From positions 1 to 64,000 of the forward strand of contig CANJRM010000008.1 of assembly GCA_947476645.1 (NCBI GenBank): 64,000 nucleotides of DNA. Direction: 5' to 3'. Position numbers and translations under genes: made by a program. Of the stretch, positions 32,834 to 63,537 are shown piece after piece. Every line of letters begins with the position of its first letter. The stretch's first letter is position 1. Under the pieces are notes generated by a model that did no database searches, was not told where the DNA came from, and was given only the letters and a program-made list of their open reading frames with translations. This DNA comes from Bacteroidota bacterium. Lineage in GTDB: Bacteria; Bacteroidota; Bacteroidia; Chitinophagales; LD1.

Positions 32834-34789
32834 TTATCTTCCCATGTGCACCAGCAATACCGAAACATCTGCGGGAGATACTCCGCTGATTCGGCTTGCC
32901 TGCCCTAGGGAAGTGGGTTTAATTTTAGCTAATTTTTGTCGCGCTTCAATACTCAATGATTTCAATTTGCTGTAATCATAATCCGCCTGCAGTTTAATGT
33001 CCTCCAGCTTGCCCATCTTCTGCACCAGGTCCATTTCCTTTTCAATATAGGCATCGTATTTCATTACTATTTCGGCTGACTCAATAAAGTCCTTATCGTA
33101 TTTATTCAGGAATTCATCGAGCGCCTTTACTCCCTTGCGCAGAATTTCCATGTTCACCTGAGGACGCATAAGCACCTTATCCAACTTTACCTTTTGGTTT
33201 AACTCTGCGGTTCCTGCTTCGCTCAGGGTGGCATTTATTTCGGCTGGCTCCACTCCGTATTGGGTAAAGAACTCTCGTATTTCTTTCAGGGCTTCTTTCT
33301 TTTGCTTCACCCGCTCGTATCGCTCATTATCTGCCAATCCGATGCCGTAACCGAGTTCGGTGAGGCGAAGGTCGGCATTGTCCTGACGAAGCAGAATACG
33401 ATACTCTGCGCGGCTCGTAAACATACGATACGGCTCTTCAGTTCCCTTGTTGATGAGGTCGTCTATCAATACTCCGATATAAGCATCAGAACGTTTGAGA
33501 ACAACAGGCTCTTCTTCCTTGGCAGAACGATGTGCATTGATACCCGCCATTAAGCCCTGACAGGCGGCTTCTTCATAACCTGTGGTGCCGTTTATTTGCC
33601 CCGCAAAGAACAATCCCTTAATCAACTTTGTTTCGAGAGAGTGACTCAACTGCGTAGGCGGAAAATAATCATACTCTATAGCATAGCCGGGGCGAAACAT
33701 CTTTACGTTTTCGAGACCCGGAACTTGCTGCAGGGCTTTGTATTGAACATCCTCGGGAAGCGAGGTGGAAAACCCATTGAGGTAAATCTCCACCGTGTTC
33801 CATCCTTCGGGCTCTACGAATAATTGATGCCTTTCTTTATCGGCAAAGCGGTCAATCTTATCTTCCACACTTGGACAATAACGAGGACCAAGTCCTTTTA
33901 TTCTTCCGCTAAACATCGGACTTTTATCGAAACCTGTGCGAAGGATGTCGTGGACTTTCTGGTTGGTGTAAGTGATATGGCAACTCAGTTGACGGTTGAC
34001 AGTTGTCAGGGGCTGGTTGTCATGCTGAGCTTGTCGAAGCATTTCTTCTTTACCCTTCGACAGGCTCAGGGTGACATTGTCTTTAGAGAAAGGGTTGACG
34101 CCCTTCTTGAAAGAAAAACCCGTTACTTCTTCGTCACCGAATTGCTCTTCCATTTTGGAGTAGTCGAGACTTCTTCCATCTAACCTTGGCGGTGTTCCTG
34201 TTTTCATTCTGCCCGCTTCAAAGCCGAGTTCTACCAATTGCTCGGTAATGCCATGAGCCGCTTTTTCTCCTGCTCTGCCCCCACCAAAGTTCTTTTCACC
34301 GATATGAATAAGTCCGTTGAGGAAGGTTCCGTTGGTTAAAACCACAGATTTAGACGGAATCTTTATCCCCATTGAAGTGCGGATTCCGCACACCTTTCCG
34401 TCCCTTATCAACAGCCCGCCAACCATATCCTGCCAGAAATCCACATTTTTGGTCTCCTCCAACATGGTTCTCCACACGGTTGCAAACATCATTCTATCGT
34501 TCTGAGTGCGGGGACTCCACATAGCCGGACCCTTACTTCTATTCAGCATACGGAACTGCACCATGCTCTTATCGCTTACCATTCCCGAGTAGCCACCGAG
34601 GGCATCAATTTCACGAACGATTTGTCCTTTAGCTATTCCACCCATGGCTGGGTTGCAGCTCATTTGTGCAATGGTTTGCATGTTCATAGTAACGAGCAAC
34701 ACACTGCTGCTCATATTGGCGGCAGCTGCAGCGGCTTCGCAACCTGCGTGACCGGCACCTACTACTATAACATCATACTCTTTGAACAT
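32834..34789 (-). CDS. mnmG: tRNA uridine-5-carboxymethylaminomethyl enzyme MnmG (GidA), carrying a repeat-derived insertion
   Basis: DVIVVGAGHAGCEAAAAAA, CNPAMGGIAKGQIVREIDALGG, GPRYCPSVEDKI, INGTTGYEEAACQGLMAGINA. Confidence 0.95.
   Translation of the reverse strand: MFKEYDVIVVGAGHAGCEAAAAAANMSSSVLLVTMNMQTIAQMSCNPAMGGIAKGQIVREIDALGGYSGMVSDKSMVQFRMLNRSKGPAMWSPRTQNDRMMFATVWRTMLEETKNVDFWQDMVGGLLIRDGKVCGIRTSMGIKIPSKSVVLTNGTFLNGLIHIGEKNFGGGRAGEKAAHGITEQLVELGFEAGRMKTGTPPRLDGRSLDYSKMEEQFGDEEVTGFSFKKGVNPFSKDNVTLSLSKGKEEMLRQAQHDNQPLTTVNRQLSCHITYTNQKVHDILRTGFDKSPMFSGRIKGLGPRYCPSVEDKIDRFADKERHQLFVEPEGWNTVEIYLNGFSTSLPEDVQYKALQQVPGLENVKMFRPGYAIEYDYFPPTQLSHSLETKLIKGLFFAGQINGTTGYEEAACQGLMAGINAHRSAKEEEPVVLKRSDAYIGVLIDDLINKGTEEPYRMFTSRAEYRILLRQDNADLRLTELGYGIGLADNERYERVKQKKEALKEIREFFTQYGVEPAEINATLSEAGTAELNQKVKLDKVLMRPQVNMEILRKGVKALDEFLNKYDKDFIESAEIVMKYDAYIEKEMDLVQKMGKLEDIKLQADYDYSKLKSLSIEARQKLAKIKPTSLGQASRISGVSPADVSVLLVHMGR
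34018..34076. repeat. dispersed palindromic element, copy 3, inside mnmG
   Basis: TGTCATGCTGAGCTTGTCGAAGCATTTCTTCTTTACCCTTCGACAGGCTCAGGGTGACA. Confidence 0.9.
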
Positions 34790-34828: not shown

Positions 34829-34844
34829 TGTGCCACGTGGAACA
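34829..34844. promoter_or_regulatory. parS-like palindrome 1
   Basis: TGTGCCACGTGGAACA, one mismatch to TGTTCCACGTGGAACA. Confidence 0.55.
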
Positions 34845-34894
34845 GGGATAGTTTAAAGTTCAAGGTTTCTCTGGGTTTAATGCAGTTGTTGGAT

Positions 34895-34910
34895 TGTGCC
34901 ACGTGGAATG
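34895..34910. promoter_or_regulatory. parS-like palindrome 2
   Basis: TGTGCCACGTGGAATG, direct copy of TTGTGCCACGTGGAA 66 bp from site 1. Confidence 0.45.
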
Positions 34911-60657: not shown

Positions 60658-61680
60658 ATGGCTACCGATTCAAAATCGAAAATTTCTTTTTACCACTACA
60701 ACGAAAGCGAATTCATATACGAAGAAACAGCTTCGCTGCAAGCCAGCGCTTTAAAAGATAAAAGCGCGCATGTCAACTGGGTCAACATTTTAGGTATAGA
60801 AGACAAAGAAATGCTACGGCAGGCAGCAGAACTTTACAATTTGCACCCGCTTGTTCTGGAAGATATTCAAAATCCGAATCAGCGGGCAAAAATTGAGGAC
60901 TATAATGATTCCTTGTATGTGGTGTTGCGCATGTTTTCGCTGGTAAATGGTGAAGTACAAGACCAGCAAGTGAGTTTAGTGCTACGCGATAATGTGTTGC
61001 TTAGTTTTCGAGAAAAGGAGTTTGGTGTTTTTAAAAAATTAGTTGGAGACAAGCTGACCAATAACACCGGCAACATTCGAAAGAAAGGCGAAGATTATCT
61101 GCTTTATACTTTGCTCGATACTATAATTGACCAGTATTTTTTAGTGATAGAGGATGTAGAAGTACGCGTGGAAAAGTTGGAGCAGGAAATTTTTTCTAAT
61201 TCTAACGATTCACAATTACTTACCTTACAACAATTAAAAAGCGAAGTGCTTTACATGCGCAAAAACATTGTGCCCGTTCGCGACCTTATTACGAATTTAA
61301 TTCGCAATGAAATTGAATACTTCGAAGCCGACAATAAATATTACCTGCGCGATTTGCAAGACCACATGACTCGTAATGTGGAAGAGCTCGATTTTTTGCG
61401 CGACCAATTAAGTGGTTTGATGGATTTATATTACTCGCTGCAAAACCACAAGATGAACAACGTAATGAAAACATTGACCGGTGTTTCGTTTGTGTTGCTG
61501 CCGTTGAATTTTATCGCCAGCATTTACGGTATGAACTTTACACACATACCACACACCGATGATATAAACGGCTTTTGGGAGTTAGTGGCTGCCATGGCAT
61601 TTATTGCTGTGATACTTACCTATTTTGCCTTTAAGCGCAACTGGCTTTCTACAAAAGATTTTGACAACAACTCCAAATGA
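60658..61680 (+). CDS. corA: magnesium/cobalt transporter CorA
   Basis: C-terminal SFVLLPLNFIASIYGMNF; KIEDYNDSLYVVLRMF. Confidence 0.92.
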   Translation: MATDSKSKISFYHYNESEFIYEETASLQASALKDKSAHVNWVNILGIEDKEMLRQAAELYNLHPLVLEDIQNPNQRAKIEDYNDSLYVVLRMFSLVNGEVQDQQVSLVLRDNVLLSFREKEFGVFKKLVGDKLTNNTGNIRKKGEDYLLYTLLDTIIDQYFLVIEDVEVRVEKLEQEIFSNSNDSQLLTLQQLKSEVLYMRKNIVPVRDLITNLIRNEIEYFEADNKYYLRDLQDHMTRNVEELDFLRDQLSGLMDLYYSLQNHKMNNVMKTLTGVSFVLLPLNFIASIYGMNFTHIPHTDDINGFWELVAAMAFIAVILTYFAFKRNWLSTKDFDNNSK

Positions 61681-62252
61681 AAATCGGTCTCTTCTTCGGC
61701 TCGTTTAATCCGGTTCACAATGGTCATTTGATTATTGCCAACTATGTTTGTGAGACAACGGAGTTGCAAAAGGTTTGGTTGGTGGTGAGTCCGCAAAATC
61801 CATTGAAGCAAAAAGAAACTTTGCTTCGCGAATACGACCGATTGCATTTAATCAACCTCGCTATTGAAGACAACAAAAACCTAAAGGCATCGAACATTGA
61901 GTTTAAATTGCCGAAGCCGAGCTATACCATTGATACGCTCACTTATCTCCAAGAAAAATATCCGCAACATGAGTTCTCTTTAATTATGGGTAGCGATAAT
62001 TTGGAAACACTTCATAAATGGAAGAACTATGAATTGATTTTACAGAACTACCCTATTTATGTTTACCGCAGAAGAAATGCCGACACAAATCCTTTTCCCA
62101 AGAACAAGAAGATTTATTTTCTAGAATTTCCATTTCTCGATATTTCCGCCACTTTCATTAGAGAGAATTTAAAGAACGGAATTTCGATGCAGTATTTTCT
62201 TCCTGAGCCGGTTTGGAAATACATTGACGAAATGAAGCTTTATAATAAGTAA
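61677..62252 (+). CDS. nadD: nicotinate-nucleotide adenylyltransferase
   Basis: IGLFFGSFNPVHNGHLIIANYV; SLIMGSDNLETLHKWKNYE; DISATFIRENLKNG. Confidence 0.94.
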   Translation: MKIGLFFGSFNPVHNGHLIIANYVCETTELQKVWLVVSPQNPLKQKETLLREYDRLHLINLAIEDNKNLKASNIEFKLPKPSYTIDTLTYLQEKYPQHEFSLIMGSDNLETLHKWKNYELILQNYPIYVYRRRNADTNPFPKNKKIYFLEFPFLDISATFIRENLKNGISMQYFLPEPVWKYIDEMKLYNK

Positions 62253-62257
62253 AATCG

Positions 62258-62645
62258 CTTTCCACACCTACCCTGTTAATTAAGGTTGAAAACTGTGGGT
62301 AAGTAGCTTGCAACTATTTTTGGTTTAGCCGATTTAAAACACGTCCGTTTCTTCATTCTTTTTTTCTTGGAAATGTTTTAGGTAATCCACACAGTAATCC
62401 ACACGATGTTAGCGTAAACTTATGCAGTTTCTTATGTCAACATCACTATCCACAGCTTGTGAATAAACCTGCACTTTTGAGGATTGGCGCACTTCTCCAA
62501 GTAACACTGGGTGTGAATTGGTGTTTATCTTCTTTTGAAAACGGTTAATCAAAATTTTAAAGAAGAAAGTTTATCTAACAATTCACAGCCCTAATAATAA
62601 GGGCTATAAATTTTATTTAACCATTTACAATTAATACAGGGTGTT
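62258..62645. promoter_or_regulatory. oriC: candidate replication origin (oriC): DnaA-box cluster plus AT-rich segment
   Basis: CTTTCCACA 62258, TGTGGGTAA 62294, TAATCCACA 62383, TAATCCACA 62395, CTATCCACA 62446, TGTGAATAA 62458; AT-rich 62605-62635. Confidence 0.65.
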
Positions 62646-62751
62646 GATGGTGTAAAAAACAAATCTTTCCCGAAACCCATTTTACCTTTGTGCCGTATAT
62701 AATTTGAACATTGCGTTGCAATAAAGGAACCAAAAGAAGCGTTATCTGTTC

Positions 62752-63537
62752 ATGAAAGGAATGAAGGTTGTCTTTCTCTTACTTGTTTTTGCTATTACCT
62801 CGGCATTTATGCCGGGCAATTTATCGTTTGAGGATATGCAGAAAAATTTTGAGCGCGTGAATGATGCCTATTCGCGCAAGGAAGAATACTTTAAAATGAA
62901 ATGTCGTTCAAAGGAAATTCCAGAGGAAACTTTCGGCAATATGTTTTTGAGGGTGTTTAAGCAGGAAGCTATTATGGAAGTTTGGGTGCAGAAGCCAGAT
63001 GGAAAATATGTTTTGTTTAATCAGTTTGGAATTTATTCAATGAGTGGAAGCCTGGGACCAAAACGCCAGCAGGGCGATTGTCAGGTGCCCGAAGGTTTTT
63101 ATTACATCAACGATTTTAACCCACAGAGCAATTATCATTTGTCGTTAGGGGTAAGTTATCCGAACGAATCGGATATGCGATTGAGCAATGCGCCACGTAA
63201 AGGTGGTGATATTTATATTCATGGCGGGCAGGCGAGTGCGGGATGTATGGCTATGAGTAATTACTACATCGAAGATATTTACATCTGTGCGGTGAAAGCA
63301 AAAACAAACGGACAGCAGAAAATTCCGGTGCAGATTTTTCCTTTTAAACCGACAGTAATCAACATGGAATATTATTCGCGTTTCAGAGAGTTTGCTATCA
63401 ATTCAAAGCTCTGGAAAAATTTACAACAGGGTTACCAAATGTTTGAAAGAACAAATCGCTTACCCGAAGTTTATGTGGGCGCAAATGGTTACTACCTGTT
63501 TATTGACCCGGCTTCTGCTTCTGCCTCTACAAAATAA
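62752..63537 (+). CDS. L,D-transpeptidase (YkuD-like) family protein
   Basis: GPKRQQGDCQVPEGFYYINDFNP...SNAPRKGGDIYIHGGQASAGCMAMSN. Confidence 0.88.
   Translation: MKGMKVVFLLLVFAITSAFMPGNLSFEDMQKNFERVNDAYSRKEEYFKMKCRSKEIPEETFGNMFLRVFKQEAIMEVWVQKPDGKYVLFNQFGIYSMSGSLGPKRQQGDCQVPEGFYYINDFNPQSNYHLSLGVSYPNESDMRLSNAPRKGGDIYIHGGQASAGCMAMSNYYIEDIYICAVKAKTNGQQKIPVQIFPFKPTVINMEYYSRFREFAINSKLWKNLQQGYQMFERTNRLPEVYVGANGYYLFIDPASASASTK

Follow-up and report, generated by a model that had tools for sequence, protein, structure and literature searches.

A predicted chromosomal replication origin between nadD and an L,D-transpeptidase gene in an uncultured Bacteroidota bacterium

The intergenic gap between nadD and a gene for an L,D-transpeptidase is predicted, with a probability of about 0.9, to be the chromosomal origin of replication (oriC) of an uncultured Bacteroidota bacterium. 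The gap lies in a 64,000-nucleotide stretch of one contig (the window), and the assembly to which it belongs (G000) comprises 201 contigs and 3.56 Mb and is about 90% complete. An earlier note had proposed a replication origin here, and this proposal is supported by the conservation of DnaA boxes and trios, a core that occurs once per genome, nearby parS sites, a box cluster that follows parS and mnmG, and a V-shaped GC skew in a same-family relative. The element is of an ordinary kind; what is new is its location and refined anatomy. The prediction would place the origin of a genus in which it is not next to dnaA and cannot be recognized from the skew, which is too scrambled. The motif, together with the parS/mnmG landmark, could also locate origins in fragmented assemblies of relatives, for instance when growth rates are to be estimated from read depth.

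Box cluster and candidate unwinding core

Both neighboring genes are those named in the earlier note, and the noncoding gap, given there as 500 bp, measures 499 bp (Table 1). All six matches or near matches to the DnaA box that it had listed were recovered where it had placed them. A search of a plasmid collection returned no match to the element, and there is thus no sign of a plasmid origin.

In the window, it is only the clustering of one-mismatch boxes that is unusual, not their number: 14 were seen and 15 are expected, which is chance level, but 5 of the 14 fall within 173 bp. Genome-wide, there are 620 such sites in 3.56 Mb, so that about 0.0002 clusters of at least five in 300 bp would be expected by chance. 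None of 3,000 dinucleotide shuffles of the gap reached five boxes (maximum, 3). With the relaxed box NWWTNCACA, the gap has 7 sites in 400 bp versus 0.33 expected and is the densest place on the contig; the noncoding cluster is thus above chance by each of these measures.

We infer that the central boxes form two three-site modules (+,+,−) with 12-bp steps, offset by exactly 51 bp (starts at 62383/62395/62407 and 62434/62446/62458); in the window itself, two of the six are weak boxes. The two copies of TAATCCACA, 12 bp apart, have one mismatch each, as do CTATCCACA and TTATTCACA, and G009 has a strong box (GAATCCACA) at the reverse site of module A. Box-to-box spacings of 12, 51, 63, and 75 bp rank with the most frequent across the genome set. 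The 51/12/12-bp spacing is also kept in G004 (185234, 185285, and 185297, followed by TTACCCACA at 185309), where the flanking genes differ.

Downstream of the modules is a conserved element that the earlier note had missed, CAATTCACA-GCC-CTAATAATA, followed by AT-rich DNA. The corresponding pattern, MAATNCACANNNYTAATAA, occurs once in the genome studied and was found in 15 of 41 relatives, in most of them precisely where the boxes cluster; it lies inside the cluster in G001, G003, G004, G007, G014, G016, G017, G018, G019, G021, G027, and G033. Members lacking the strict pattern have sequences close to it, among them CAATTAACA...CTAATAAT and AAATTCACA...CTAGTAATAA. The core recurs at the cluster across the order, but only 40 of 299 genomes of the order have the strict pattern, some of these matches probably being due to chance, and it is therefore not universal there. 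The AT-rich stretch that had been claimed beside the boxes is there but is modest: at 62601 to 62640, the AT content is 75% versus 59% for the window. It is not exceptional, which counts against an oriC. An additional tandem box upstream of the core (TTATCTAAC, 62571) is not claimed, as it has three mismatches and a 1-bp overlap with the next box and the abutting 9 bp (62570 to 62578) are only 0.77 conserved. A short GC inverted repeat, GCCCTAATAATAAGGGC (62588 to 62604), encloses the trios here and in G014 and G015; a similar arrangement is found in G018 but not in most members of the genus.

The gap DNA matches 8 of 17 same-genus genomes with E values of 1e-192 to 1e-8 and 2 more (G007 and G013) weakly. 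In an alignment of 13 genomes, the box and trio columns average 0.85 in conservation and the remaining gap columns 0.66 (Mann-Whitney P = 3e-15, a value that overstates the strength of the difference because of the dependence between neighboring columns and between related genomes). The best-conserved stretches are those at 62383 (0.96) and 62458 (0.92), the core box at 62579 (0.93), and the trios at 62591 to 62599 (0.96).

Table 1. Features of the predicted oriC and its surroundings (window positions)
Feature	Position	Strand	Remarks
mnmG (gidA), gene beside parS	32834..34789	−	Pfam PF01134
parS-like site TGTGCCACGTGGAACA, upstream of mnmG	34829..34844		1 mismatch to TGTTCCACGTGGAACA
Second, weaker parS-like site TGTGCCACGTGGAATG	34895..34910		3 mismatches
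nadD, flanking gene	61677..62252	+	Pfam PF01467
Intergenic region with predicted oriC	62253..62751		No ORF of ≥80 aa in ORF scan; kept within genus
DnaA box CTTTCCACA	62258..62266	+	2 mismatches
DnaA box TTACCCACA	62294..62302	−	1 mismatch
Box module A: TAATCCACA, TAATCCACA, weak reverse TGTTAGCGT	62383..62415		Starts 62383 (+), 62395 (+), 62407; 12-bp steps
Box module B: weak ATGTCAACA, CTATCCACA, TTATTCACA	62434..62466		Starts 62434, 62446 (+), 62458 (−); layout of module A, 51 bp downstream
Weak DnaA box CAATTCACA	62512..62520	−	
Candidate unwinding core: box CAATTCACA, 3-bp spacer GCC, trios CTA-ATA-ATA	62579..62599	+	Once in own genome; conserved columns
AT-rich stretch, putative duplex unwinding, adjoining trios	62600..62640		75% AT over 62601 to 62640
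L,D-transpeptidase (YkuD), flanking gene	62752..63537	+	Pfam PF03734

Proposed initiation and known origins

A basal unwinding system (BUS) consists of a DnaA box, a short spacer, and NAN trios, as in incC of Bacillus subtilis (PMC6669920, PMC8287927). The published rule calls for at least three NAN trios within 16 bp of a DnaA box and for no more than two mismatches to TTATCCACA in the proximal box (PMC8287927). Here, the trios CTA-ATA-ATA start 3 bp past CAATTCACA, but this box has three mismatches to the Escherichia coli consensus TTATCCACA and exceeds the limit of two. Thus, the core probably works like a BUS but is not one under the published rule; the equivalent box CAATCCACA in G004, G019, and G026 has two mismatches and is within the limit. 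The gap resembles incC in its clustered boxes, in a box adjoining a short spacer and NAN repeats with AT-rich DNA beyond, and in having parS in the neighborhood. It differs in that the trio-side box is weak, the spacer is 3 bp long rather than in the reported peak range of 10 to 13 bp (PMC6669920, PMC8287927), and dnaA is not alongside.

In the initiation that we envisage, DnaA would bind the array made up of the two modules and the outlying boxes and, from CAATTCACA at 62579, would extend as a filament onto the trios (3′-GAT-TAT-TAT-5′ on the other strand). The filament would melt the AT-rich DNA at about 62600 to 62640, admitting the DnaB helicase, and the new origins would be segregated by ParB bound 27.6 kb away, at the two parS sites upstream of mnmG. 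We tentatively suggest, at somewhat less than even odds, a lineage-specific oriC architecture in which the two 12/12-bp three-site modules, 51 bp apart, feed a core of weak box, 3-bp spacer, and CTAATAAT, with the whole unit staying near parS and mnmG while nadD and the L,D-transpeptidase gene come and go. The oriC of E. coli lies beside gidA/mnmG and contains an array of DnaA sites. Like that origin, the gap does not adjoin dnaA, combines close strong and weak DnaA sites, and has mnmG in its region, whereas here mnmG is 27.5 kb away, the three-site module is repeated at 51 bp, and parS sites are present.

parS linkage and GC skew

The parS search was noisy in the genus with the TGTTTCACGTGAAACA form, whereas the TGTTCCACGTGGAACA form worked. 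In the window, parS is 27.6 kb from the box cluster, a distance that counts against an oriC. Sites near the cluster or the adjacent transpeptidase gene were nonetheless found in G000, G004, and G019, in G006, G008, G009, G012, G013, G014, G015, and G017 (usually paired, 9.5 to 25 kb from the transpeptidase gene), and in G018, G021, G024, G027, and G033 (about 0.5 to 31 kb from it). A nearby parS thus recurs in at least three families and in most of the relatives checked, and we estimate the chance of a parS within 30 kb to be about 2% per genome. A box cluster near parS was not found in G020, G023, G032, and G034. The genome studied has parB. In 12 genomes (G000, G004, G006, G008, G014, G015, G017, G018, G019, G021, G027, and G033), dnaA and the cluster are on different contigs, indicating that the origin is not beside dnaA. 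The parS-like pair (34829 to 34910) sits in the mnmG-ybeY gap, and its left half in the genus is often TGTGCC instead of TGTTCC; parS therefore seems to have drifted together with its ParB.

GC skew is informative in G018, a relative in the same family, where the 320-kb contig C4 has a V-shaped skew: all 14 bins on the left (to 140 kb) are negative and 15 of the 16 on the right are positive. The flat minimum at 133 to 145 kb contains the core, at 143.6 kb. Same-genus contigs have no skew minimum at the cluster, the minimum being 29 kb off in G017 and 49 kb off in G008 and the curve being flat in G006; the G004 contig has no clear minimum at the locus, and G019 is likewise ambiguous. GC skew is scrambled in the genus and is of no use for placing the origin. 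We read the missing minimum as rearranged or weak skew, and it counts against the oriC case.

Relocated clusters and alternative explanations

The transpeptidase gene directly follows the cluster in most members of the genus, as well as in G021, G024, G027, and G033, as would be expected if the cluster were a DnaA-regulated promoter of that gene (or a regulatory site linked to nadD) tying expression of a neighbor to the cell cycle. However, G004, G018, and G019 are natural REARRANGEMENTS in which the cluster is parted from its flanking gene or genes. In G004, the transpeptidase gene is on C11 with only one isolated one-mismatch site upstream, and no parS was found in the 225 kb of C11 examined; the cluster and core are on C49, adjoining the gene next after mnmG, with parS at a distance of 4 kb. 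G018 has no cluster at the transpeptidase gene (116 kb); in that genome, the cluster and core are at 143.3 to 143.7 kb, 4 kb from parS (147.5 kb). The G019 cluster adjoins nadD and is 1.6 to 10 kb from parS; a transpeptidase orthologue was not detected in G019. In G010, G013, and G008, it is nadD that is not adjacent. The unit is thus conserved in relatives independently of its flanking genes; the cluster stays with parS and mnmG when nadD, the transpeptidase gene, or both have moved and is therefore not a promoter element of either. Nothing argues more strongly against a promoter role than these relocated cases, which largely refute it; we consider such a role very improbable.

Clustered DnaA boxes also occur at loci that titrate or recharge DnaA, and in the genus the origin cannot be read off the skew, so that the cluster might be a datA- or DARS-like locus near an oriC located elsewhere in this region. 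An unwinding core with adjoining AT-rich DNA is not expected at titration sites, though, and the cluster is the densest in the parS-region stretches of G000, G004, G006, G008 (tied with one other place), G017, and G018; such a locus is just as improbable as the promoter. It is less probable still that oriC lies at one of three other places: at a tandem pair of exact TTATCCACA boxes on contig C39, beside dnaA, or at a group of boxes inside mnmG (34363 to 34476) that is 350 bp from parS. The C39 site is rejected since it has only two boxes, no match to the core, and no parS within the examined part of the contig. The dnaA contig has a single box, and the mnmG group is discounted as it lies within coding sequence.

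The C39 pair (G000:C39:23368-23387) consists of two boxes 11 bp apart in the gap upstream of a gene for a small secreted protein and may serve as a DnaA-regulated promoter or a titration site; the whole genome has only five exact DnaA boxes. We also found, in several relatives, second, short proteins with the C-terminal (box-binding) domain of DnaA, encoded by ORFs of about 94 to 151 aa (G018:C2:632272, G021:C7:47860, G034:C354:2581, and G020:C2:66362).
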